Shown here piece by piece: positions 2,932-32,042 of a DNA stretch of 32,042 nt. The stretch's first letter is position 1. Each line of letters starts with the position of its first letter. The stretch is from assembly GCA_014360845.1 (NCBI GenBank), contig JACIWR010000006.1, forward strand, positions 1 through 32,042, written 5' to 3'. This DNA is from Anaerolineae bacterium. Lineage in GTDB: Bacteria; Chloroflexota; Anaerolineae; JACIWR01. Both the position numbers and the translations under genes were made by a program. Under the pieces are notes generated by a model. That model did no database searches, was not told the DNA's origin, and saw nothing but the letters and a program-made list of their open reading frames with translations.

Positions 2932-5900
2932 GTGAACACCTGGCAGCGCAACTGGCAACGGATAGCCAACTTCATCAGGCGAACTCAGGTGTACCAGTTC
3001 TTGCAGTATGGCATTCACACCGAGCATGGAGTCCTCACCGCTTTATTCTATCTCCGTTTCGCCATTCTCATCGGTGTGACAGTGCATTTCGGCCTGGCTG
3101 CCGGTCAGAGCACGTCTCCCACCATTGTCGCAGCCCAAAAGTGGAGCTGCGTCTGCTTCTTCTGGTATGTGATACTTCTGGGCTACCTGCATCTTTTCCA
3201 TCCCGACTTATACATCTCGCCGAGGGTGAAAATACTGCAAGTTATCGCCGACCTGGTCTTCTTCTCCCTGTTCTATCTCCTGAACGGCGATCCCGACTCC
3301 GTGCTCATCGCCCTCTACCTCCTACCCCTAACCCTGGTAGCTCATCGGTACAGCCGTACCTTGTTGATAGTCACCTCGGCCCTGGTCGTAATCGCTCTCA
3401 TTGTCGCTTTGTTGGGCATCGCCATCTGGACCAATCGAAGCGGGGAAGTCGGTTGGACCCTGTGGCCGGGGATCATTTTCCTGATCACTCTCACTTTGGC
3501 CACGCGCCTGTTCCGCCGCCGAGAAGCTCTGGATCAACTGGGCGAGGCGCGACAGCAACTGATCAGCGATACGGAAAACATTTCTGATAGTTGGTTCATT
3601 ATTGACAGTAAATACAGTGTGATCGCTGCCGATGACCGGCTCCTGGCGTGGACGGGCACCGATCTTATCCACACCCACTGCTTTGAATCCCTGCGCGGCC
3701 ACAATTCGCCCTGCGGCGATTGCCCCCTGCGCCCCAACTCCCCAGGAGGCAACAGCCAGACCCCGTTGACCACCCACTTCCACGACCATGCCGGACAGCG
3801 CTTCCGCGTGCAGGTCAGCGCCGCATCTCTTCCGGGTGACGCTGGCGAGGGTGACGCCGCGCGCGCCATCCTCTTCGTCCGCAACCTCTCCGCGCGCGAA
3901 AGCCTCCAGCGGGAGCTCCACAATTACTTCGACAACGTGGACCAGACTGTGGATTTGCTCACCTCGGAGTTGCGGGAGCGTACCGAGGCGCTGCGACGAC
4001 AACTGAGCACGGTGTTCTCCGCCTCGCTGGCCGCCGTCTCCGCCGACGAAACGGCCAGCATCGAGCGCATCATCAGCGAGACGGTGCACACTCTGGGCTG
4101 TGCGGCAGCCTCCCTCCGCCTGGTAGGTCAGGATGAACACGGTAACGATGGATTGATCTTGCACTACGCCTACGGATGGCCCCAGGAGTACGCCCAGGAG
4201 GCCCACATCCTCAGGTTGGATCACGAGAGCCTGGTGGTGGACGCTTTCCGCTGCCGCCAGGTCCGAACCGCCAGCCAAATCAGCCACCGGGGACGTGGGG
4301 CTATTCACTTCATCCAATACGCGGCCCGGCTGAATCTGCACTCGGTCATCTGCTTCCCTTTGATGGTCGGTGCAAAACCCATCGGCACCCTATCCCTATA
4401 CCGCACTCAAGCACGAGGCTTTACCCCGGAGGAAAAACGCCTGGGGCAAGCTTTGGCCAACAACCTGGCCATCTGCGTCCACAACTTTGAGCTCTACCAC
4501 AAAGTATCCCGCGAAGCCGAAGCGCGCCGCCGCTGGCTGGATGTGCTCCACATCCTCAGTCAGCGCCTGACCGGCGTCAGCCAGCTTGATCCCCTGTTCC
4601 AACTGGTAGTAGACACCACCCGCGAGCGATTGAACGCCGAAATATCCTCCCTCTTTCTCCTGGAAAAGGGCCGCCTGGTGCGCAAAGCCATCGCCGGAGT
4701 GGAGAACGAGTGGTTTCCAGAGGAAAGCTACGAACCCGGTCAGGGACTGACCGGCCGCGCCCTCCTGTCCCTCGATGACAGTCGACGCGGTGAGGCCGTT
4801 CTCGTAAACGAGGTGGACAAAAGCGCCGACGTCATTCAATCGCATCTGGCCCGTTACCAGGCCCGCCTCCCTTCGGGACAGGTAAAGCATCTACTCGCCG
4901 TGCCGTTGAACGGGCACGATGGGCCGTTCGGCGTGCTGAGGGTGGTAAACCGCCTCCAGGCCGATGGGTCAATAAACCCGCAGGGCTTCGGACAGGATGA
5001 CGTAGACCTGCTCTCCACCATCGCCAGCCTGGTGGCCGTCGCCGTGGACAACGCCCGGCTCCTCAGCGCCGCCGCCCAGGCCCGGGAGCGGGTCGAAACC
5101 CTGTATAACATCACCACCCAATTCAGCACCAGACTCGACCTGCGCAGCGTGATGGAGACCATCCTGCGCCTGACCATCTCCAGCGTAGGCGCTGAGGATG
5201 GGAATATCTTCGTCTTGGCCGAGGACGGCAGCCCTCTGACCCACATCCGCATCCGGCGAGGTCTTATCAGAGAAGTGCCAGCCCCGGTCATAGACCGCGT
5301 GTTCAAGGAAGGATTAGCCGGCTGGCTTCTGAGTCACAAGCGGGGCATTATCATCAAAGATGCTCACCAGGATAGCCGCTGGCTTATCCTGACGCCGAAG
5401 CAGCAGAGGACACGCTCTGTCATCGCCGTGCCCCTCATCTGGCGCGAGCGGGTGAACGGTCTCCTGTTCCTGGAGCACTCCCAGCCCGGCGTGTTCACCC
5501 AGGAACACTTGAATCTGGTCACGGCCAGTGCGACGCAAGCCGCCATCGCCATTGAAAATGCACGACTGTGGGAACAAGTCGTGGAACAGAAAGGCCGTCT
5601 GCAGGAGTACCTGGCCGGTTTAAGCGACAGCATGGCTCAGCTCACCGACTTAGAGGGCCTGTACAAGATGATTGTGCACGCTGGCGCTCGCTTCCTCAGC
5701 GCGGCGGAATGCTCGCTCTACGTCCGAGACAAGGAGAAAAACGCCCTGGTCCTGGTGGCGTCCAATCAGCAAAGCGAGGTTCTATCCGCCAGCCAGGCGA
5801 CTCCCATCAGCGCTGAGCCAGGCGGGGGATTAGCCGCATATGTAGCCGCCACGGGCGAGAGCCTGAACTTCGCCTCTCCGGAGGAATGCCGGGCACATCC

Positions 5901-8166: not shown

Positions 8167-11070
8167 CTAGGGCCGGGCAGACTCGACGGTCACAGGCCCC
8201 AATAGCACGTGATCTCCCACCACCTGGCCCGTCTCGTCCAGGATGGGCAGCCGCTCTCCCGTCTCCAGCCGATACATCCCCACCTCGATAGCGTACTCAC
8301 CCGCCGGCGCGTCGTCCTTGACGGGGATGAGGTATTCGTCGCTCACCACCTCGCCAGCCATCCAGAGGGCGGTCGGATACTGCCCTCCCAGTGGTGGGCT
8401 GTCCTTCTGGCCCCACACCTGGCCCGCTCCGTCCAGCAGGTGAGTAAACACCGTGTAACTCTCCGCCATCTCCGTCAAAGCTCGCCAGTAAAGCCGCAAG
8501 CGCAGGCCATCGCCCGCTTGAACAGTTTTACTCTCCAGGTCGTACCCCAACAACTCCACCTGGTCCCCCAGATTAACGTACAAAGGGTATGCCATCTCCG
8601 GCACCACAAACTGCCGCTCCACCACTTCCACTTGCAAGCTTCCCAGCGACAGCACCGTCGCCCCCGTTCCCGTGGTCAGCGGCTGTCCCCCGTCAACGCC
8701 CACCTGCAGTTCAATCTCATACTCACCGGGAGGAATGCCGGGGTCAATGAGCAGAGCATAGCGATCTTTCACGATCTCGCCCTCCGTCCACTGCCCCGTG
8801 GGATATGTTCCCTGCACCGGCGCCCCCTGCCACAGAAGCCATTCCGCGCCATCTTGTCCCCGCAGCCGAATTGTGACCTCGTAGTCCTCTGCCACATCCC
8901 GGCGGGCCTGCCAGTACAGCACCGGATAGAACTTCTCCCCAGATCGTACCTCGCGCCGGGGCCAGTCATATCCCAGAAAGACAAGAGCTTCTCCCAGAAC
9001 CTCCTCCCGACTTTCTTGAATATCCAACTCCGTCCGCGCCACCGGCTGCGTCGCGCGCGTCACCTGCAGAGGCCCCAGGACAATCGTATCCCCTGCCACA
9101 CGACCCTCCTCGTCCAGGGGCGGCAAAGGAGCGTCCAGAGAAGAAGAATACACACCCACCGCCAGCCAATACTCCCCCGGAGGAGTTCCCGCTTCCACTT
9201 CAACTCGCTTGTGGCTCACCATCACATCGCCAGGACGCCATTGCGCCGAGGGGTAATCGAAGAAATCATCCCGGCCCCACTGGAACCCCCACTCATCACG
9301 CAACCAGACAAACATGCTCCAGTCGCCCGTGGGCGTCGCTTGCAACACCCGCCAGTACAGGGTGAAGTCCACCGCCTCACCGGAGGGAACCGGGCTGCTC
9401 AGATCATATCCCAGGAGTTCCAGAGTATTACCCAGATTCACCCTGTGAGGATGCTGAGGCATCGGTTGAGGCAGCTCCTCTGGAGAGAAAAGATAAGCCG
9501 TGAAAGCGGGCTGGCCCATCGCCCCCTGCCCTTCCACCAGCAACGCCGGCGCGGGGAAAAACCGCTTCAGGAGAGACGGGTCGAGGGGGCTCTGGTGAGG
9601 AAACACATAGAGAACCTCCCGCTCCGCGCCCCCAGGGAAGACCACGGTATCACCACCGACCAGCCAGCGAATACGAGCATAATGGGGGGTCAAAAGGGCA
9701 ACCGTGGGATGTTGATAGTGAATAGACGAGACGAAAATATCCTGCTGCCCCATCTCCCACCGATTGAGATAGCGAGCCGCATCAGCCACATCGCCGTCGT
9801 TGAGGTAATAGACGTAAGGCTCACCGGCCCAATCCACAAAATAATACCAAAAGGTCAGAATTCCACCGCCGACAAGCAACAAGGCCAGCGTCCCAGGCCA
9901 GATGAGAGGCGAGTATGACAGCCGCTCCCGCACCCTGTCCAAGAGGCCCACCAGGCCCCAGGCGGGGAAGACGAACAGCAGGGGCATAATGCCCACTGCC
10001 CGCAGGTAATGGGGCACTTCGTCCAGAGCGAGAGTGGTGGGCAAGAGCATCACCACCAGGGTAACGAGGGAGAGAAAATGCGCCGCCCGTGACCATCGCT
10101 CGCGCCCACGGAGGATTTGATGCACGCTCAGCAGCAGGCCAATGTAGAAGAAAAACGAGATAATCACACCAAAGACGGGCCGATGGGCGATGTTGAAGCG
10201 CCAGTTGTCCGTCCCCCGGAAGCTGAACATGCCCGCCGTCTGGCAAATGGCCCGCCAGAGCGCAGACCATCCCCCATTTCCATCTCCCCAAAGACTCAGC
10301 AAGCCCACCTGTCCCATGCGCACGAAAAAGCTCTGGGGGTGGGTGAGAAAATAATAGCCCAAGGGCGCAAAGACGATACCCGCCACCACCGCGAAAAGGA
10401 GGAGTTGACCCAGGCGCTTGCGAAAGGCATGGCGGTCATCGAACAAAATCCAGAGGGAGAAGAGGAACAAGACCAGGGGGAAAGGACGACTGGCCAGATA
10501 GGTGTAGGCCGTCGCACCACAAAAGAAACCGCCGAGGACCAAAAACCCGACCCGCTCCTGCCGCAATCCTCGCCACAAGAAATACAGCGTGAGCCCTTGC
10601 AATAACGGCTGGCTGACAGCCCGCAGCCCATAGCGGCTGATGGTCACATTCCAATAAGAAGTGGCCAGTAGAGCCGCACTGAACAGCGCCAGCCAATGGG
10701 CTCGCTCCCGCCCCTCGTTGATGAACAGCTCCCGCACCAGAGCATAGGTCAACCCCACCGTGAGCACGCTGAGCAAAGCCGAAGTCAGGCGCAGAGCCCA
10801 GAGATTGACCCCCAGCAGCTTCATCAAGGCCGCAACCAGGTAGAAGTACAGCACCTCCTTGCCCGTATAGGATTGAATAAACAGGGGGTAGTCCCTGCCC
10901 AGGGCGATGTCGGCGCTGAGAAGACCATTGGCCGCTTCGTCGTAGTAGGGGCCATGAGGGAGAGATTGGAGGCGATACACCCGCAGAAAAAGGGCCACCA
11001 GCAAGATAGCAATCAGCCAGACCGATATGGAAATAGAAGTTCGCCTTTTGTGTTGTTGGGATTCGCTCAT
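8167..11070 (-). CDS. GT-C fold membrane glycosyltransferase (GT39/ArnT-like) with three C-terminal repeat modules
   Basis: This 967-aa protein has an N-terminal GT-C membrane core (about 1-440, roughly ten or more helices). The first external loop carries the acidic motif 'PYYDEAANGLL', the catalytic Asp/Glu position of dolichyl- or polyprenyl-phosphate sugar transferases. It probably moves a sugar from a lipid-phosphate donor to a protein, lipid or polymer on the outer face. The C-terminal half is extracytoplasmic and holds three tandem beta-rich modules at about residues 541-671, 690-819 and 831-967. Each opens with 'LGxxxxLLGYD', continues with 'LYWRxL' and 'GQYPTxxW', and closes with 'PPGEYxxxVGxY' and 'LGPLxV'. 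The start at 11070 (MSESQQHKRR, just before the first helix) is preferred; an ATG at 11127 is possible, and neither has a strong ribosome binding site. It appears monocistronic. Confidence 0.85.
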   Translation of the reverse strand: MSESQQHKRRTSISISVWLIAILLVALFLRVYRLQSLPHGPYYDEAANGLLSADIALGRDYPLFIQSYTGKEVLYFYLVAALMKLLGVNLWALRLTSALLSVLTVGLTYALVRELFINEGRERAHWLALFSAALLATSYWNVTISRYGLRAVSQPLLQGLTLYFLWRGLRQERVGFLVLGGFFCGATAYTYLASRPFPLVLFLFSLWILFDDRHAFRKRLGQLLLFAVVAGIVFAPLGYYFLTHPQSFFVRMGQVGLLSLWGDGNGGWSALWRAICQTAGMFSFRGTDNWRFNIAHRPVFGVIISFFFYIGLLLSVHQILRGRERWSRAAHFLSLVTLVVMLLPTTLALDEVPHYLRAVGIMPLLFVFPAWGLVGLLDRVRERLSYSPLIWPGTLALLLVGGGILTFWYYFVDWAGEPYVYYLNDGDVADAARYLNRWEMGQQDIFVSSIHYQHPTVALLTPHYARIRWLVGGDTVVFPGGAEREVLYVFPHQSPLDPSLLKRFFPAPALLVEGQGAMGQPAFTAYLFSPEELPQPMPQHPHRVNLGNTLELLGYDLSSPVPSGEAVDFTLYWRVLQATPTGDWSMFVWLRDEWGFQWGRDDFFDYPSAQWRPGDVMVSHKRVEVEAGTPPGEYWLAVGVYSSSLDAPLPPLDEEGRVAGDTIVLGPLQVTRATQPVARTELDIQESREEVLGEALVFLGYDWPRREVRSGEKFYPVLYWQARRDVAEDYEVTIRLRGQDGAEWLLWQGAPVQGTYPTGQWTEGEIVKDRYALLIDPGIPPGEYEIELQVGVDGGQPLTTGTGATVLSLGSLQVEVVERQFVVPEMAYPLYVNLGDQVELLGYDLESKTVQAGDGLRLRLYWRALTEMAESYTVFTHLLDGAGQVWGQKDSPPLGGQYPTALWMAGEVVSDEYLIPVKDDAPAGEYAIEVGMYRLETGERLPILDETGQVVGDHVLLGPVTVESARP

Positions 11071-11280
11071 GAAGGCGATTATACACCGACCCAGACCCCG
11101 GCGCAACTCCTCGCGTTTCGCTCCCATGTCGCACCATCGTTGTCCTGTGGTTGCACTGCGGGACTATCCTCGCCTCTCGTGGAGTACGACTCCGCGAGAT
11201 CAGGTGAGGTCCAACCCCGCGAGGCACGGGAGACCCGGACACGGTACGTTTGGAGTACTCAAGGTGGGCCCTTTGGGGGA

Positions 11281-11308
11281 TTACAACAAACAAATTGTGA
11301 TGTAAAAT
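11281..11308 (+). promoter_or_regulatory. Sigma-70-like promoter of a small transcription unit
   Basis: TTACAA (11281-11286) and TAAAAT (11303-11308) are separated by 16 bp in an AT-rich island within GC-rich DNA. The GGGGGAG ribosome binding site and ATG 11340 follow at suitable distances. Confidence 0.55.
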
Positions 11309-11339
11309 ACAAATAGTAAAAAGGGGGAGAAGACCACGC

Positions 11340-11561
11340 ATGGAAAGCGCGCAAGACAGCAGGTGGGCAATGGCAGAGATGAAGTGGACTATCACCGATC
11401 TCATCAGTCGTGAATTTGTGGATGTTGACTACGTCAACCCGCGCAAGGCCCATACCGGCGGGAGTCGCTACTACCATGCCGGAGACGCGCCACGAGTCAA
11501 CAATGCCTCACACCTCCACCCCTGCGTCTACGGCGCGACAAGGTGTAACCGTTGTCGCTAA
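11340..11561 (+). CDS. Small protein of unknown function, 73 aa, Cys/Arg-rich C-terminus
   Basis: ATG 11340 is preceded by GGGGGAG (11323-11329) and by a promoter-like pair at 11281-11308. The product is hydrophilic and ends in HPCVYGATRCNRCR with three cysteines. The middle (WTITDLISREFVDVDYVNPRK) could be a short leader-like helix. No family is recognised. A stem-loop with a T-rich end lies 36 bp downstream (11597-11640), so promoter, ribosome binding site, short ORF and terminator form a self-contained unit. An overlapping frame (11410-11616) ends closer to the hairpin but has no ribosome binding site and low-complexity Ser/Thr/Pro/Ala composition. The unit could also be a non-coding RNA. 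Confidence 0.4.
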   Translation: MESAQDSRWAMAEMKWTITDLISREFVDVDYVNPRKAHTGGSRYYHAGDAPRVNNASHLHPCVYGATRCNRCR

Positions 11562-11596
11562 AGCAACCCCATTTGCTTCCTGGAAATCTGGGGTCG

Positions 11597-11645
11597 AAAA
11601 ATCCGCTCCCGCCTGAACCAACAAGGTGAGAGCGGATTTTAGTTT
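11597..11645 (+). terminator. Terminator-like hairpin after the small unit
   Basis: AAAATCCGCTC (11597-11607) pairs perfectly with GAGCGGATTTT (11630-11640) around a 22-nt loop, with AGTTT following. The A/T ends of the stem give a U-rich 3' tail on the + strand. The long loop weakens it. It lies directly before the ribosome binding site of the next gene, so read-through control of that gene is also possible. Confidence 0.6.
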
Positions 11646-11664
11646 CAGAGAGGAGGTGACCGAG

Positions 11665-12585
11665 ATGTCGCGCATAAGATGGGAGGACAGGGGACAGGAT
11701 GACAGGGTGGTCTTCCGCACCCACTGGATCTTCCTGGTCAAGCGGCTGGCGACGTGGGTGCCACTCCTCGCCCTGAGCATCGGCTTCGTCGCTCTGGTCA
11801 GGCCAGGTAGCGTCTTCTGGCCATTACGGCTGCTGCCTCTCATCCCCCTCAGCGCCATCGTCTGGAACATCGCCGATTGGCGACAACGCATCTTCGTGTT
11901 CTACAAAGGCAGGCTGTACAGGCCAGATGGCATCCTGCACCTGCGTCAGCGCGTGCTCAACTTCCCCTTCTCCAACTGGACTCTCATCCAGTCCTTCCTG
12001 GGGAGGCTGCTGGACTACGGCGATGTGGAAATCGGCATGGGTGCCAACCCGGATCGGCTGGAGTGCATTGGCCGCTTCGCCGCCTTCACCGAAGCTCTGG
12101 ACGTGCTGCGCCAGCAACAAGCAGCCGGCAACCAGTCAAAGCCTTCACAGGTACAGCAGCAGGCAGTGGTATTCATGACCATCCCCCCAGAAGGCAGAGG
12201 CACAGTTCCCGGTGCCAGGCATCCCGTCCGCACCCAGGGAGAAGAGCTTTGGAGCCAGGGATACGTCTACCAAGGCACCCCTTTTGAGGTAGATGTGCCC
12301 AGCTACGCCGGGTTCCTGGCCTTCTGTGAGGAGTTCGTGCTACGTCAGCACAACTGGGATACCTGGTACTGCATCAGCGCCGATGCAAACCGTTGCTACT
12401 ACCCCCACGGCATCGGGGAACGTGCTGCGCAGTTCTACCTGGAATTGCTGGAGCGAGCCCACATCATCCGCGGGGCGAAGAACGGCGACAACGGTTGGGT
12501 ATCCCCCCGCATCCGCACGCTGGAGGACATCAAGCGGCGAATACCTTACTTCGAGCGCTTCAAACCCATTGGGGCGGCGAATTAA
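11665..12585 (+). CDS. Membrane-anchored PH-like domain protein, 306 aa, unknown function
   Basis: ATG 11665 follows a near-perfect AGGAGGTGA (11651-11659). The N-terminal part has two hydrophobic segments (about residues 20-45 and 50-70: 'RLATWVPLLALSIGFVAL' and 'LRLLPLIPLSAIVW'). A bacterial-PH-like stretch follows ('GRLYRPDGILHLRQR', 'DYGDVEIGMGANPDRLECI', 'FTEALDVL'), which recalls membrane bPH2 proteins. Residues about 210-306 form a separate soluble region rich in aromatic residues ('NWDTWYCISADANRCYYPHG', 'FYLELLERAHIIRGAKNG') that looks like a winged-helix or small alpha/beta domain but is not recognised. It is probably co-transcribed with the Cys-rich gene at 12651. The PH-like call is a judgement from pattern only. 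Confidence 0.6.
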   Translation: MSRIRWEDRGQDDRVVFRTHWIFLVKRLATWVPLLALSIGFVALVRPGSVFWPLRLLPLIPLSAIVWNIADWRQRIFVFYKGRLYRPDGILHLRQRVLNFPFSNWTLIQSFLGRLLDYGDVEIGMGANPDRLECIGRFAAFTEALDVLRQQQAAGNQSKPSQVQQQAVVFMTIPPEGRGTVPGARHPVRTQGEELWSQGYVYQGTPFEVDVPSYAGFLAFCEEFVLRQHNWDTWYCISADANRCYYPHGIGERAAQFYLELLERAHIIRGAKNGDNGWVSPRIRTLEDIKRRIPYFERFKPIGAAN

Positions 12586-13281: not shown

Positions 13282-13405
13282 CTTTTCCACCACAGAGCAC
13301 GCAGAGATCGCCGAGAATAGCAGAGCCCTTTTACGTCGCCGTAAACCGGCGGCGCTGACAAAGTGGCGTCGCCCCATGTAATGCCGTCGGGGGCAAGCCC
13401 CGCCG

Positions 13406-16309
13406 CTACTCCCTGCGAGCTCGCCGCTTGGCCCGCAGCAGACGGGCGGTCAGTTCCTCGCCTTCCTCGCCACCCTCGTCTCTTGCGCCCTCCTGTCCCT
13501 CCCCAGTTCCCCTGAGTGCCCCCACTTCCCTCAATCTTCCTGCTTCCCGCCTCTTGCCTCTTGCTTCTTGCCTCTTGTTTCTTGCCTCTTGCCCTCTACC
13601 TCCTGCCTCCTGCTTCCTCACTCCTCTCTCTTTGGCCACCAACAGCCGCTCCAGACCGGAGGGCGCTGGCTGTAGCACCCGTCGCCTCCGCAGGCGAGCC
13701 CAGCCCCGCGCCAGCCAACGGCGCACGTCCGCCAGACTTATCATCACGCGGCGCAATCCTACGTCCAGGGGCAGCAGACAGACGGCGACCGTCAACAGCC
13801 AGGGCCACACGTCGGCGTGGGTGCGCACGGCGGCCAGGGGCCGGGTAAAAGCCTCCTCGGGCGAGTGCAACTCACGTCCGTGGCCTATTTCCGCCAGACG
13901 GGCCAGCAGGGCGGTGTCCGCTCCGAAGCGGCGGTACTCGTCCGAGTAGCCGCGCACGAAGCCGGTGGCCTGTGAGGCCAGTGTGTGCACAGCGCCGTCG
14001 GCCTCCTCACGCCCCGCAGTAATGCCCAGCAGATAGACGCCCTCTTCCGGCGCGGCGAACTCCCCCTCGTAGTGGCCCGGCGCGGTCTGCCGCAGGACCA
14101 GGGGCGCAAGGCCTTGCGCTCCTACCTGCGTCGGGGCGACGACGTTGACCCGCACCACCAGCCCGTTCAAGTAATCGCCGGCCTGGTCCACCACGTCCAC
14201 GGTGACGCGCGCCTGCTCGCCTTCCTGGACCACCCGCGTCTCCAGGCCGCTCTCCGCCGCCTCGATGATAGTCCAACGCACGGCCTGCGCCCAGAAGCGC
14301 GGGAATCCCTCCCAGGTCACCCACTCCCGCGCCCACCGCCCCCAGGCATCCGAGGTCCAGGCCACGGCCCGTCCCAGCCCGTACTGCCACGCAGCTAGAA
14401 TGGGGTCGTTCTGGGCGGAAACGAGCACCACCTGAGCTGCGTCCTTGCCCGAGGTACCCACGTAACCGTACAGGGCGGGCACAGCTGCGATCCCGTCCAG
14501 GATGGGACTGGGCGCGACCTGCTCCGGGAAGAAGGTCTCCTCGATGATGTACGCCCGCTGGACCACAGCCGTCTCCTGGGCGAATATCTCCGGGATGGAA
14601 GCCGGGTCCTGCACGAAGTGAAAGCGCCCACCACCGCGCACGGCCAACGGCTCCAGAAACGGGGCGTAGTCCTGGCCCACAGCCACCACCGAGAGGGTGA
14701 CGTCGGCGGCGCGCATCTCGTCTACCAGTTCGGGGATGCCGCTGGGATCAGCCCCGCCATCGGTGAGGAGCACCACGTGCTTTACCTGTGCCTCGGCAGG
14801 GATAATGGCCTTGGCAGCAGCCTTGAGCCCGGCAAAGATGTCGGTGCCGCCCCCGGCGCGGATGGTGCCCACCATCCCCTGCACCACAGCCACGTCCTCC
14901 AGCGGAGCCAGGTCCACCACCCAGTAGGCGCTGTCGTCGAAGGCCACCACCCCTAGTTGATCCTCTGGACCCAGCAGCTCCACGGAACGGATCACGGCCT
15001 CTTTGGCCAGCTCCACCTTGGGCGGGCCGCCCGCCGTCCCACCGGAACTCATGCTCCCCGACTTATCCACGACGAAAACCAGGGCCACGGTGGGCATCCG
15101 CGCCTTGTCCTTGATGCGCATCTCCACGGGCAGGACTTCTTCCAGAGGAGTGCGGAAATACCCCCCTACCCCGTAGCTCTCCTCGCCCCCAATGCACACC
15201 AACCCCCGCCCCAGGTCGCGGACGTAAGTCTGCAACGCGGCCATCTTACGCGGTCCCAGTTCGGCGGCTGGGACATTGACCAGCACGATCACGGCGTACT
15301 CGCCCAGCTCGGTCAGGTCGGAGGAAAGGCGGGCCGGCGTGGTCTCCTCGACCTGAAGCCCCGTGGCCGTGAGAGCAGCCACCAGGTTCTCGCTCTCGGA
15401 TGCTTCGCGAGCTACGAGGAGCACTCGCGGCGCACCATGCACCAGACTGAAAGCGGCCAACTGATTGTTCTGATGAAAGGTATCCTGATCAGCCACTACT
15501 TGCACACGGAAGGTGCTGAATCCGGGCGCGCCGGCCACCAGGGGCAGGACGTAGGAGTTGAGACCGGGCTCGAGCTGAACCGCTTCCTCGGCGACTAGCT
15601 GTCCATCACTCACTACGCGAATAGTGGCCGCCGTCCCCGTGGTGCTCTGCACCTTCACCACCAGGTTGAAAGACTCACCCTGATGCAGGGTGGGCGGGGC
15701 CTCCACCGCATCCACCCACACCTCCTCGCCCGCGCTGGTGAGCAGGGGGACCACGTCCAATTCGACCCCGTGAGCCGCCGCCAGGGACGCTGCTCTCTCC
15801 GCCGTGCCCTCGTTTTCCTGTCCATCGGAGAGAAGCACCAGCCGCTTCTGGGTCGCCCCGGGGAAGAGGGCCAGCCCCAGGCGAAGGGCTTCTTCGATGT
15901 CGGTGTGACCGGTGGCCGGGATGGAAAACAGATCACCCAGTTCCCGCGCCGTCGTGACGGGGCGGTCTACCAGCGCATCGCTGCCGAAGACCACAATCCC
16001 GGCCCGGTCGTGAGGTCCCATCTCCGCCAGCGCCGCTTCCACGAAGCTCAGCGCCGACGCCTTCCAGGCCGACGAGACGCTGTCCGAGACATCCACCAGG
16101 AAGATCACGGCCAGCTCGTCCACCGCGCGCACGAGCTGCATCCCGGCAATGCTCAACGTCAGCAGGACCAGGATGAGCAGGCGCGTCAGCAGGATGAGCG
16201 CCGACCGGACACGACGCACGCGGCTACGCCCCTGTCGCCACAACCAGACGATGGGCAACAGGGCGAGGAGCAGTATCAGGGCCCAGGGGTGAGTAAAAGC
16301 AATGGGCAT
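13406..16309 (-). CDS. Large membrane protein with two von Willebrand A domains and a GATase-like domain
   Basis: This 967-aa protein has two N-terminal membrane helices (about 8-25 and 38-60). A first VWA domain follows, with MIDAS residues D73, S75 and S77 ('FLVDVSDSVSS'). Next come a CARDB/Ig-like region (about 200-290) and a glutamine-amidotransferase-like fold (about 300-400, 'ALQTYVRDLGRGLVCIGGEESYG'). A second VWA domain has MIDAS 'VVDKSGSMSSGG' near 415. A late helix ('VWPWLLTVAVCLLPLDVG') precedes a charged tail. The arrangement is that of BatA-neighbouring VWA/GATase membrane proteins of unknown function; metal-dependent adhesion or chaperone-like assembly is the usual guess. The tail (about 889-922) is low-complexity E/A/G/K/R sequence encoded by a CTTCTTGCCTCTTG-type DNA repeat. 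It is the last gene of the three-gene minus-strand operon. The start at 16309 has only a weak ribosome binding site. Confidence 0.85.
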   Translation of the reverse strand: MPIAFTHPWALILLLALLPIVWLWRQGRSRVRRVRSALILLTRLLILVLLTLSIAGMQLVRAVDELAVIFLVDVSDSVSSAWKASALSFVEAALAEMGPHDRAGIVVFGSDALVDRPVTTARELGDLFSIPATGHTDIEEALRLGLALFPGATQKRLVLLSDGQENEGTAERAASLAAAHGVELDVVPLLTSAGEEVWVDAVEAPPTLHQGESFNLVVKVQSTTGTAATIRVVSDGQLVAEEAVQLEPGLNSYVLPLVAGAPGFSTFRVQVVADQDTFHQNNQLAAFSLVHGAPRVLLVAREASESENLVAALTATGLQVEETTPARLSSDLTELGEYAVIVLVNVPAAELGPRKMAALQTYVRDLGRGLVCIGGEESYGVGGYFRTPLEEVLPVEMRIKDKARMPTVALVFVVDKSGSMSSGGTAGGPPKVELAKEAVIRSVELLGPEDQLGVVAFDDSAYWVVDLAPLEDVAVVQGMVGTIRAGGGTDIFAGLKAAAKAIIPAEAQVKHVVLLTDGGADPSGIPELVDEMRAADVTLSVVAVGQDYAPFLEPLAVRGGGRFHFVQDPASIPEIFAQETAVVQRAYIIEETFFPEQVAPSPILDGIAAVPALYGYVGTSGKDAAQVVLVSAQNDPILAAWQYGLGRAVAWTSDAWGRWAREWVTWEGFPRFWAQAVRWTIIEAAESGLETRVVQEGEQARVTVDVVDQAGDYLNGLVVRVNVVAPTQVGAQGLAPLVLRQTAPGHYEGEFAAPEEGVYLLGITAGREEADGAVHTLASQATGFVRGYSDEYRRFGADTALLARLAEIGHGRELHSPEEAFTRPLAAVRTHADVWPWLLTVAVCLLPLDVGLRRVMISLADVRRWLARGWARLRRRRVLQPAPSGLERLLVAKERGVRKQEAGGRGQEARNKRQEARGKRREAGRLREVGALRGTGEGQEGARDEGGEEGEELTARLLRAKRRARRE
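13541..13640. repeat. Low-complexity CTTCTTGCCTCTTG repeat inside a coding sequence
   Basis: The stretch is a run of variants of TTGCCTCTTGC / CTCCTGCCTCCTGC. On the minus strand it encodes the charged tail of the double-VWA protein. The same type of sequence normally lies between genes, so here it has probably expanded into or extended the 3' end of the gene. Confidence 0.7.
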
Positions 16310-26967: not shown

Positions 26968-27927
26968 ATGGCTTACGTCTATGGCCCCGTCCCCTCGCGG
27001 CGGCTGGGGCAATCGCTAGGGGTGGACCCCATCCCTTTCAAAACGTGCAACTACAACTGTGTCTATTGCCAGTTGGGACGCACCAGTCCGGTCACCAACG
27101 AGCGGCGCGATTTCTTCCCGCCGGAGGACATCCTGACCCAGGTGCGCGTCGCTCTGGAACGCCACCGACCCGGCGAGATTGACTACATCACTTTCGTCGG
27201 ACAGGGCGAGCCAACCCTCTGTGCCAGCCTGGGATGGCTCATCCGCCAAGTGAAGGCCATGACCGATATTCCCGTGGCGGTGATCACCAATGGCGCGTTG
27301 CTTTGCCAGGCTGATGTACGTGATGAGCTGACCGCCGCCGATGTGGTCATGCCCACCCTTGACGCGGCGGATCAAACCACCTTCCGGCGCATCAACCGTC
27401 CCTGGCCCCGTTTCCGCATCACCGAGATCATCGAGGGCATGGCCGTCTTCCGCGAGATGTTCCACGGCCAGTTTTGGATGGAAGTCATGCTGGTCAAGGG
27501 ATTGAACGACGACGAGCCCACGTTGCTGAGCATTCGCGACGCGCTGGCTCGCATCGGTCCCGACCGGATACAGATCAACGTACCCATCCGCCCACCGGCC
27601 GAACATTGGGTGGAGGTCCCTGACGACGAGGCCATCGTGCAGGCCACGGCCATCCTGGGCGAGGCCGCTGAGGTAGTCGCACCTTACGAGGGCACCTTTG
27701 ACCTCTCCGGTTTTACAGACGTAACTGAAGCGGTACTGGAAGTGATCCGCCGCCATCCGATGCGCGAAGCGCGGCTCGTAGAGACGCTGGACCATTTTGC
27801 ACCAGGGAAGGTACAGTCTACCCTGGCACGGCTGGAATCCAGCGGCCAGGTACAGCGGCACGTCTATCGGGGTGAGATTTTCTGGCAATACGCTGCCAGT
27901 ACCTTTGAGAGGAAAAAACTGCCATGA
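26968..27927 (+). CDS. Radical SAM protein (COG0731-like) with C-terminal winged helix
   Basis: This 319-aa protein has the radical SAM cluster motif C27-x3-C31-x2-C34 in 'FKTCNYNCVYCQLG', preceded by the family signature 'YGPVPSRRLGQSLGVDPIP'. The TIM-barrel core includes 'FVGQGEPTL' and 'AVITNGALL'. The C-terminal part (about 255-312, 'RRHPMREARLVETL' and 'VQSTLARLESSGQV') resembles a winged helix. The family is related to wyosine-type enzymes by COG grouping, but members of this branch have no settled reaction. Its stop overlaps the transporter start by 4 bp (ATGA), so it is coupled to that gene and belongs to the metal-cluster operon. Confidence 0.9.
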   Translation: MAYVYGPVPSRRLGQSLGVDPIPFKTCNYNCVYCQLGRTSPVTNERRDFFPPEDILTQVRVALERHRPGEIDYITFVGQGEPTLCASLGWLIRQVKAMTDIPVAVITNGALLCQADVRDELTAADVVMPTLDAADQTTFRRINRPWPRFRITEIIEGMAVFREMFHGQFWMEVMLVKGLNDDEPTLLSIRDALARIGPDRIQINVPIRPPAEHWVEVPDDEAIVQATAILGEAAEVVAPYEGTFDLSGFTDVTEAVLEVIRRHPMREARLVETLDHFAPGKVQSTLARLESSGQVQRHVYRGEIFWQYAASTFERKKLP

Positions 27928-29135
27928 ACGTTGAGCGTTGGGGCTGGTATTCCATCGCCGTCAATGTCATCCTGGCGCTGATCAACCTGGTCATCGCCCT
28001 GGCCTCCGGCAGCCTGGCCGTTGGTGCGGAGATGGTCCACAACCTGGTGGACCTGTTGACGGCGGTTGGGGTACTGATCGGGCTGAAACTCTCGACGCGG
28101 AAGTCCAAGTCCTTTCCCTACGGCCTGTACAAGCTGGAGAACGTGGTCACCGTGGTACTGGCGGTGATGATTTTCTTCACCGCCTACGAGATCACCCGGG
28201 ACGCGCTCTTTTCCCCAACTCGCCAGGCCACGGTGGACCTCTGGATGCTGGGCGGTGTGATAGTAGCCACGGCCATTCCCCTGGTCTTCAGCCATTTCGA
28301 ACTGCAAGCCGGACAGGCAGCCAACTCCCCGGCCCTGATCGCCGACGCGAGGGAGTACCGCGCTCACGTCTTCACCACCGGCGTGGTCTTCGCCGCCCTT
28401 CTGGCGCAGTGGTTCAACCTCCCGCTGGACCGTCTTGCAGCACTGGTCATCGTTGTCGCCATCGGCAAAACAGGGTGGGAGTTGCTAGCCGACGGCATGC
28501 GGGTACTGTTGGACGCCTCGCTGGACGCCGAGACGCTGAACCACATCCGCGAGATCATCACCGGCGAGCCGGGCGTGGCCGAGGTGAAATGGGTCACCGG
28601 GCGCAACTCAGGGCGCTTCCGCTTCATCGAGGCGGACATCGTGCTACGTTTCCACGATCTGGAGAAGGCCCACGCTGCGACCCAACGCATCGAGCAGAGC
28701 ATCCGCGCGGCCGTGCCCCATGTAGACCGGGTGCTGATCCACGCCGAACCGTTGGAGCGCACACACCTGCGTTACGCCGTTCCTCTGGCCGATCTGCAGG
28801 GCACGGTTAGCGAGCATTTCGGAGAAGCGCCTTACTTCGCGCTGGTCACTTTGCGCCTGGCGGATGGACAGGTGGAACAACAGCAGATTGTCGCCAATCC
28901 TCACACTGCCGTGTCCAAAGCCAAGGGCATTCGCGTGGCCGAATGGCTGGTGGCCCAGAAAGTGGACGCGGTGCTATTACGAGAGAGCCTGCAAGGCAAG
29001 GGACCGACCTACGTCTTTGGGGAGGCCGGAGTAGAGATGCAGCTTACCACAGCGGAGACGCTGGCCGACGTGCTGACCATGCTCGCGCGCGAGCACACAA
29101 CGCAGAATGCCCCACCGGATCAACAGGAAGGCTGA
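27924..29135 (+). CDS. Cation diffusion facilitator fused to a NifX/COG1433 metal-cluster-binding domain
   Basis: This 403-aa protein has a CDF transporter part (about 1-275, roughly six helices plus a cytoplasmic CDF C-domain 'ITGEPGVAEVKWVTGR'). A COG1433-type dinitrogenase-cofactor domain follows (about 285-390, 'GTVSEHFGEAPYFALVTL' and 'GIRVAEWLVAQKVDAVLL'). CDF proteins export divalent metals by proton exchange. The metal site is unusual: helix 2 has HNLVD (His/Asp), and helix 5 has 'EYRAH' where HxxxD is expected, giving a Glu/His pair. That suggests changed metal choice. COG1433 domains bind Fe/Mo-type clusters in NifX, NafY and ORP. The fusion would link metal export or sensing to the COG1149 ATPases in the same locus. 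It overlaps the radical SAM gene by 4 bp. Confidence 0.9.
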   Translation: MNVERWGWYSIAVNVILALINLVIALASGSLAVGAEMVHNLVDLLTAVGVLIGLKLSTRKSKSFPYGLYKLENVVTVVLAVMIFFTAYEITRDALFSPTRQATVDLWMLGGVIVATAIPLVFSHFELQAGQAANSPALIADAREYRAHVFTTGVVFAALLAQWFNLPLDRLAALVIVVAIGKTGWELLADGMRVLLDASLDAETLNHIREIITGEPGVAEVKWVTGRNSGRFRFIEADIVLRFHDLEKAHAATQRIEQSIRAAVPHVDRVLIHAEPLERTHLRYAVPLADLQGTVSEHFGEAPYFALVTLRLADGQVEQQQIVANPHTAVSKAKGIRVAEWLVAQKVDAVLLRESLQGKGPTYVFGEAGVEMQLTTAETLADVLTMLAREHTTQNAPPDQQEG

Positions 29136-30098: not shown

Positions 30099-30515
30099 AT
30101 GGACTACACCGACATCGTACTCGACCATGCACGCAATCCGCGCAACGTGGGCTTCATCGAGGATCACGACGGGATGGGCACCTACGGCGACCCGAACTGC
30201 GGGGATTTCGCCGTGATGACCATCAAAGTACGGGGCGAGAGGCTGACCGACGTGCGTTACCTGGTACAGGGGTGCGGAGCAGCCATCGCCACCTGTAGCA
30301 TGGCCACCGAACTGGTCAAAGGCAAGCCATTGTCCGAGGCGCGGAAATTGACCGACGAGGACGTCACCGAGGCCCTGGGCGGCTTGCCGGAGGTCAAGCT
30401 GCATTGCTCCAACCTGGCAGCCTCGGCCCTGCAAAACGCCATCGAGGACTACTACAAGCGGCAACGCACCGACCTGCACAACTGGAGAGCATTGTACACC
30501 AGAGCCATGCGCTAG
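30099..30515 (+). CDS. nifU: NifU/IscU-type Fe-S cluster scaffold protein, 138 aa
   Basis: The three scaffold cysteines are present in their usual contexts: C34 ('DPNCGD' with Asp36), C59 ('VQGCGAAIA') and C103 ('LHCSNLAA'). An extra Cys lies at 66. The N-terminal 'HARNPRNVGFIEDHDGMGTYGDP' is typical of IscU/NifU-N proteins. There is no LPPVK motif, as in NifU-like rather than IscU-HscA systems. It would assemble [2Fe-2S] or [4Fe-4S] clusters and hand them to carriers such as the COG1149 ATPases. No cysteine desulfurase is in the window. Its last 58 bp are repeated at 30820-30877, and the stop here (CGC TAG) differs from the copy (CGT TAG) by a silent change. Confidence 0.92.
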   Translation: MDYTDIVLDHARNPRNVGFIEDHDGMGTYGDPNCGDFAVMTIKVRGERLTDVRYLVQGCGAAIATCSMATELVKGKPLSEARKLTDEDVTEALGGLPEVKLHCSNLAASALQNAIEDYYKRQRTDLHNWRALYTRAMR

Positions 30516-30523
30516 CCCGATCT

Positions 30524-30750
30524 GTAGGGCAGGTTGGCTGCGGCATCGTCCCAGCGCTTGCTGCGATCCGCCTCGCCCTCTGATGGCTCAACTACCTTGC
30601 ACAGGACACGGAGCAGCCTACCTGCCGCCCGGTCCGGTAGCCAGGTGGCAGGTAGGCGACGGGACGGTCTGTCATCGGAAAGGCAGAGACCAAGTAGCTG
30701 GTTGAGGTCAGAATGGCGGTCTTCCTTACCCTGCCGCCAACCTGCCCTAC
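30524..30750. mobile_element. Non-coding element with 15-bp perfect inverted ends inserted after the nifU-like gene
   Basis: GTAGGGCAGGTTGGC (30524-30538) and GCCAACCTGCCCTAC (30736-30750) are exact inverted repeats. A nested hairpin, GCCTACCTGCC/GGCAGGTAGGC (30616-30626 and 30647-30657), lies inside. There is no credible ORF. It looks like a non-autonomous element. It is part of the segment enclosed by the duplicated nifU tail. Confidence 0.65.
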
Positions 30751-30819
30751 AAATCCCGTACCTGTCATTCTGACTGAGCGCCCGAAGGGCGCGGCATCCC
30801 GTTTCAGGAGCACAATACC

Positions 30820-30881
30820 ACAAGCGGCAACGCACCGACCTGCACAACTGGAGAGCATTGTACACCAGAGCCATGCGTTAG
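30820..30881 (+). pseudogene. Duplicated 3' end of the nifU-like gene
   Basis: Positions 30820-30877 are identical to 30454-30511 (58 bp, offset 366). The final codons are CGT TAG here against CGC TAG in the gene. It is a fragment with no start codon and is not expressed as a protein by itself. The natural spacing TAG-GAGGAAAGCACC-ATG follows this copy, so it probably marks the original gene end. Confidence 0.9.
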
Positions 30882-30893
30882 GAGGAAAGCACC

Positions 30894-31133
30894 ATGCCCA
30901 TCTATGAGTACCGCTGCCATAACTGTGGTAGCCGGGTGGAGATATTGGTTCGCCCTGGAGATCACGCCCCCTCCTGTCCCCACTGCGGTAGTCCACTACG
31001 CGAAAAACTGCTGTCCGCCCCCTACGTGATGAGCGAGCGGAGCAGTCGTCCAGCGGGCCATACTTGCTGCGGGCGGGAAGAGCGCTGCGCAGCACCGCCC
31101 TGCTCCAGCGGGGGCAGTTGCCGAAGGGGATAG
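30894..31133 (+). CDS. FmdB-family zinc ribbon protein, 79 aa
   Basis: 'MPIYEYRCHNCGSRVEILV' and 'PSCPHCGSPLREKLLSAP' form the FmdB-type CxxC...CxxC zinc ribbon at residues 8-31. The C-terminal tail (about 55-79) adds six more cysteines ('HTCCGREERCAAPPC', 'GGSC'), more than needed for the ribbon, and might bind another metal. FmdB proteins are putative regulators, and their role is poorly known. ATG 30894 follows GGAGGAAAG. Its stop is one base before the Fur-family ATG, so the two are co-translated. Confidence 0.88.
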   Translation: MPIYEYRCHNCGSRVEILVRPGDHAPSCPHCGSPLREKLLSAPYVMSERSSRPAGHTCCGREERCAAPPCSSGGSCRRG

Positions 31134-31134
31134 C

Positions 31135-31557
31135 ATGGACGTAGAACGCATCCTGCGCGCTAGGGGCCGGCGCATCACCCCGCAGCGCAGACTGATCCTC
31201 AGCATCATTCAAGAACATGAAGGACACCTGAGCGCCGACGAAATATACCACCTGGCCAGAGAGAAACGGCCTCGCCTCAGCCTGTCCACGGTATATCGCA
31301 CCCTGGACATACTGCGCGAGAGCGGGTTGATTAGCGAGCTACACCTGGACAGAGACCTGCTGCGCTACGAGATACAGCGCGACGAGGAGCATCAACATCT
31401 GGTCTGTCTAGGCTGCGGGCGAGTGATCGAGTTCAAATGCGCTCACTGTACCCGCATGCACCAGGACTTGGCCTTGCAATACGGGTTTAAGATTACCGGC
31501 AGCCGAGTGGAATTGCTGGGCTACTGCGCAGAGTGTCAGCAGAAGCAAGCAGAGTGA
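31135..31557 (+). CDS. fur: Fur-family metal-dependent transcriptional regulator, 140 aa
   Basis: The winged helix (about 1-82) shows 'RITPQRRLILSIIQEHEGHLSADEIYHLAREKRPRLSLSTVYRTLDIL'. The dimer and metal part (about 83-138) has 'HQHLVCLGCGRVIEF', 'CAHC' and 'GYCAEC', giving the structural CxxC-CxxC zinc site and His/Glu ligands. Whether it senses Fe, Zn, Mn or peroxide cannot be told from the sequence. Its place next to Fe-S and metal-transport genes suggests it regulates the locus. It is followed directly by the Gly-rich zinc-ribbon gene. ATG 31135 lies one base after the fmdB-like stop. Confidence 0.92.
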   Translation: MDVERILRARGRRITPQRRLILSIIQEHEGHLSADEIYHLAREKRPRLSLSTVYRTLDILRESGLISELHLDRDLLRYEIQRDEEHQHLVCLGCGRVIEFKCAHCTRMHQDLALQYGFKITGSRVELLGYCAECQQKQAE

Positions 31558-31857: not shown

Positions 31858-31930
31858 CGATGCAAAAACGGGGCTCGGATGGGTGCGCTTCAGATTCGGA
31901 CAGATTTGTCCCGTAGCGGCCGACCGCTGC

Positions 31931-32042
31931 TGCGTCCTGAGTGGAAGCGAAGGGCTGCGTCCTGAGCGGAGACGAAGGGCTGCGTCCTGAGCGGAGACGA
32001 AGGGCTGCGTCCTGAGCGGAGACGAAGGGCTGCGTCCTGAGC
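31931..32042. repeat. 25-bp tandem repeat running off the window
   Basis: Units beginning TGCGTCCTGAGCGGAGACGA start at 31931 (diverged), 31956, 31981, 32006 and 32031 (cut by the window end). The later copies are identical. There are no spacers, so it is not CRISPR. Confidence 0.9.

Follow-up and report, generated by a model that had tools for sequence, protein, structure and literature searches.

Chloroflexi are among the phyla from which GTAG-tagged extragenic palindromes of the REP/BIME kind have been reported (Di Nocera et al., 2013; PMC3733652), and insertions between long direct repeats are on record for IS1549 and IS1634, with repeats of 8-514 bp and no model for the mechanism (PMC2266710). 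A third point of comparison lies in eukaryotes, where templated insertions, attributed to replicative template switching, bring in DNA from a foreign site with little or no junction homology, as far as the cited example describes them (e.g., PMC5120786). Here we describe a locus of an Anaerolineae bacterium, within a stretch of 32,042 nt (contig JACIWR010000006.1, hereafter the window), that looks like a real insertion with a target duplication of 58-66 nt and like one of several similar scars in its genome. The inserted palindrome resembles the GTAG-tagged repeats in carrying GTAG at its foot, in being dispersed and mostly intergenic, in its pairing in inverted orientation and in sharing a genome with IS200-like Y1 transposases, but its unit measures ~225-240 nt and contains two nested stems vs. 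20-40 nt for REP. With IS1549/IS1634-type insertions the locus shares long direct repeats of variable length around an insert; unlike them, the insert contains no transposase and has no terminal inverted repeats at the duplication borders, and the inserts are heterogeneous. The likeness to templated insertions lies in the foreign-site DNA and the scant homology at the junctions, although the host is a prokaryote and the mechanism is a proposed one. Searches of the literature turned up neither an account of this repeat family nor one of comparable gene-end duplications. The features of the locus are given below by window position.

30099-30515, + strand: NifU_N (IscU-type) scaffold gene, "nifU"; complete ORF of 138 aa (PF01592, E=6.5e-41)
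30450-30515, + strand: copy 1 of the duplication (X1), 3′ end of nifU, with a 58-nt identical core at 30454-30511
30516-30815, no strand assigned: inserted DNA (Y), 300 nt, a composite of two repeat types (from repeat comparison, folding and Pfam)
30519-30541, + strand: left arm of the outer inverted repeat (GATCTGTAGGGCAGGTTGGCTGC), GTAG-type, 23 nt
30616-30657, no strand assigned: inner palindrome stem (30616-30632 / 30641-30657)
30733-30755, - strand: right arm of the outer inverted repeat, 91% complementary to the left
30761-30815, no strand assigned: second repeat type (CCTGTCATTCTGAC..GCGCCCGAAGGGCGC..), resembling dispersed repeats
30816-30881, + strand: copy 2 of the duplication (X2), fragment of the nifU 3′ end (from sequence comparison)
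30894-31133, + strand: fmdB-type zinc-ribbon gene (PF09723), neighbour of nifU in genomes G012 and G017
31135-31557, + strand: Fur-family regulator gene (PF01475), next in the operon

The two copies of the nifU 3′ end match at 64 of 66 positions (30450-30515 vs. 30816-30881), and 58 of these form an unbroken identity (30454-30511 and 30820-30877). A match so long, at a distance of 366 nt, is far beyond chance. The nifU stop codon falls within copy 1, where its context is CGCTAG vs. CGTTAG in copy 2, and the CGC/CGT difference is silent; copy 2 ends in the context of the fmdB ribosome-binding site (TAGGAGGAAAG). The 58-bp identity and the silent base at the stop codon had both been recorded in a preliminary description of the locus and hold, with the repeat now extended to 66 nt. 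Its name for the gene, nifU, can stand if it is read as a protein of the NifU_N (IscU-type) family, PF01592.

The insert consists of a GTAG-type palindrome of 237 nt (30519-30755) followed by ~60 nt of a second repeat. The left arm begins 3 nt past copy 1, and the right arm stops 60 nt before copy 2. What had been described as "15-bp inverted ends" is thus real as an inverted repeat, forming the core of the 23-nt arms (91%), but does not mark the ends of the insert. The second repeat (30761-30815) resembles dispersed repeats on two contigs of the same-genus genome G001 (C208 and C111, 80-88%) and on one contig of the same assembly as the window (G000, C130). The region 30512-30819 is predicted to fold into one long hairpin (-140.9 kcal/mol, z -3.65). 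No ORF of the insert had a Pfam match, a search around it for an intrinsic terminator or promoter gave no match, and Rfam returned no relevant match for it. An Rfam match to sR1 at the contig end is at chance level; a 25-nt tandem repeat (GCTGCGTCCTGAGCGGAGACGAAGG) also lies there (31929-32028), and the contig probably breaks off within it.

The palindrome belongs to a family. Its core, TAGGGCAGGTTGGC, occurs at 48 sites with at most one mismatch in its own genome vs. four for the reversed control pattern, and at nine sites vs. one in G001. Five other copies are complete with both arms (C270, C237, C281, C97, and C346). Complete copies span ~210-226 nt from core to core and 225-240 nt as whole units, and most arms start with GTAGGG. 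The nearest other copy is just 83% identical, so that no source for the captured DNA was found. No duplication of neighbouring DNA was found around the five complete copies, with duplications under ~10 nt judged only by eye; such repeats as occur at these copies lie inside the elements. At L043 (C53), ~1367-1454, a palindrome of the GTAGGGGCG type is nested in a copy of the GTAGGGCAGG palindrome, and a near-identical pair (99%) of the same element lies on C101 (L051) at 520-613 and 1393-1486.

Other members of the class indicate what the locus may have looked like before the insertion. In G017 and G012, which represent two other Anaerolineae families, nifU adjoins fmdB with a short gap from stop codon to ATG, and a purine-rich ribosome-binding site lies between the two genes (TAATGGGAGGCAAAATG in G017, similar in G012). 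Copy 2 of the window is followed by fmdB with the same tight spacing of stop codon, ribosome-binding site and ATG (TAGGAGGAAAGCACCATG), as the preliminary description had proposed in placing the natural spacing after the second copy; this argues that nifU and fmdB were neighbours until the insert came between them in this lineage. A scan of genome contigs gave matches only in a same-genus metagenome-assembled genome (MAG; G001, Anaerolineae bacterium isolate A05DMB24, JANLFX01) and in a distant archaeon. The nifU of G001 stands at 87%; fmdB was looked for behind it in this only same-genus genome and was not found, so no direct empty site is available for the nifU case.

Such an empty site exists for a second locus of similar layout. 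In a survey of 1.23 Mb of the genome (28%), we looked for sequences that recur within 3 kb and kept those that had no further copies; it gave four further gap-free layouts of the same shape, with duplications of 32-67 nt.

C568 (L156) 11049-11715: 67-nt duplication (94%) around a HicA cassette, the best sister case
C556 (L184) 8887-9157: 45-nt duplication around an GTAGGTCGGG repeat
C523 (L191) 13395-13598: 32-nt identical duplication around GTAGCGGCC repeats
C568 (L156) 4155-4656: 40-nt duplication (90%) around nested GTAG repeats

In the first of these, the duplicated 67 nt are the 3′ end of an upstream AllG-domain gene, and the second copy runs into the start of a FAD oxidoreductase (DAO) gene. 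The 533-nt insert holds two small ORFs, the second of which encodes a HicA toxin (PF07927, E=1.4e-12), while the first, for which Pfam gave no match, corresponds in size and position to a HicB antitoxin. G001 has these two genes linked by one copy only (C111:88006-88070), and this is the empty site of the HicA case. Between themselves the two G000 copies differ less than either does from G001; the four differences are spread over both, a pattern that a single duplication in the G000 lineage and subsequent drift would produce. The other three layouts contain intergenic palindromic repeats, and their duplicated sequence is otherwise single-copy; that of C556 includes a stretch that looks promoter-like by eye. 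A conserved site in G001 was looked for in the cases of C556 and C523, and none was found. The remaining near repeats of the survey were copies within elements, coding repeats or gap artefacts, and a control of 166 kb from other members of the class gave just one gap artefact and coding repeats. No terminal inverted repeats are common to the inserts, junction matches amount to 0-3 nt, and a trait shared by the window case and the four sister cases is the direct duplication of 32-67 nt.

The preliminary suggestion of an insertion with duplication is thus supported by the adjacency of nifU and fmdB in other families and by the sister HicA case with its empty site. In the scheme that we favour, and to which we give about an even chance, the ancestral order would have been nifU-(12 nt)-fmdB-fur, and a single event would have inserted ~300 nt of repeat DNA and duplicated the 58-66 nt target at the nifU 3′ end, either through repair of a break or through template switching. 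Copy 1 would then complete nifU, and copy 2 would preserve the ribosome-binding site and spacing of fmdB. Both flanking genes are whole, which suggests that the insertion was tolerated inside the operon, and a duplication of 30-70 nt, which preserves both the stop codon upstream and the ribosome-binding site downstream, may be the selective reason for its survival. One conceivable route is a staggered break with a long overhang that captured a patchwork of dispersed repeats; another is a replication fork that jumped to repeat DNA and returned to a point ~66 nt upstream. On either route, the palindromes would have been part of the captured DNA or would have made the fork stall, without acting as a transposon. 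It is the heterogeneity of the inserts, together with their lack of common terminal inverted repeats, that leads us to favour a one-step event of this kind.

Among the alternatives, an unlikely one is that non-autonomous DNA was mobilised by a transposase of the sort that generates long direct repeats of variable length, as IS1549 and IS1634 are reported to do (PMC2266710), the 58-66 nt being its target duplication. The genome does contain three IS1634-family transposase genes above the NF033559 cut-off (C262, C39, and C85), and several insertions in it are flanked by long, variable duplications. Against this, none of the three genes sits between long direct repeats (L227-L229, with up to 1.5 kb on each side, L227 being truncated on one of them). 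Nor do the inserts have terminal inverted repeats in common where they meet the duplications; members of the palindrome family normally lack duplicated flanks, and the HicA cassette is unlike the other inserts. Around the IS1634-family transposase gene of L228 (C39) we noted inverted repeats of 72 nt (90%; 1354-1424 / 3185-3256), which seem long for the ends of an insertion sequence.

An assembly artefact, in which two contigs that overlap at the nifU 3′ end would have been misjoined with repeat sequence between them, is likewise improbable. The assembly is fragmented (578 contigs), and one 37-mer in it occurs twice, on either side of a short unrelated stretch and N10, in what looks like an aminotransferase-like coding region, while a 23-mer is duplicated around a poly-G run; duplications of 47 and 55 nt surround N gaps in other MAGs. 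These perfect duplications of 23-55 nt, at L177 (C549) 1135-1271, L178 (C550) 11791-11937, L256 116-362, and L030 1861-2070, are probably products of scaffolding or gap filling that mimic an insertion with target duplication. The window case has no N or homopolymer gap, however, and its two copies differ at their edges, indicating that they were assembled from different reads. In addition, the inserted DNA is of a kind typical of the intergenic repeats in this genome, neither junction has an overlap able to mislead an assembler, and the copies of the HicA case show four differences, with an independent empty site known for that case. From the lack of a gap, the differing copies and the typical intergenic repeat between them, we think that the window case is real.

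A history in two steps, in which slippage duplicated the nifU 3′ end in tandem and repeat DNA entered later where the two copies meet, appears quite improbable. Tandem duplications of short sequences are common, and members of the palindrome family are scattered through the genome, but the inserted DNA would have had to land at the copy junction or no more than a few bases from it, and to do so repeatedly in one genome.

Three further candidates were rejected. The preliminary description had read the locus as an inserted inverted-repeat element with the duplication as target site, and had suggested a search for other copies with similar flanking duplications, naming copies without them as evidence against its reading; as this is what all five complete copies gave, and as the arms lie off the duplication borders, the palindrome does not behave as a simple transposon or MITE with target-site duplication. 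Mobilisation by RAYT was dismissed since the Y1 genes are unlinked to the repeat, with no flanking pair found in up to 1.5 kb around them, and since the IS200/IS605 family generates no larger target duplications (PMC2817692). Classical end joining of the Ku type is not supported, as no match to a Ku gene (PF02735) was obtained in G000, which is ~90% complete, or in G001.

It is largely an open question by what means toxin-antitoxin modules and repeat DNA get into operons while the genes stay unbroken. It is conceivable, though we hold the idea only tentatively and consider it rather doubtful, that the single-event insertions proposed here reflect a recurrent and so far undescribed process in this Anaerolineae lineage, by which unrelated DNA such as palindromic repeats and toxin-antitoxin cassettes enters tightly packed operons and intergenic regions with target duplications of 30-70 nt and leaves the neighbours intact. 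If so, it might be a general route of such modules and repeats into bacterial operons. Should several of the scars be real, a tally of them across strains could show what DNA is taken up, at what frequency and by which machinery; should the window scar alone be real, it would amount to an ordinary local rearrangement. Elsewhere in the window (27924-29135), we observed a cation-efflux transporter fused to a dinitrogenase iron-molybdenum cofactor domain (PF01545, PF16916, and PF02579).
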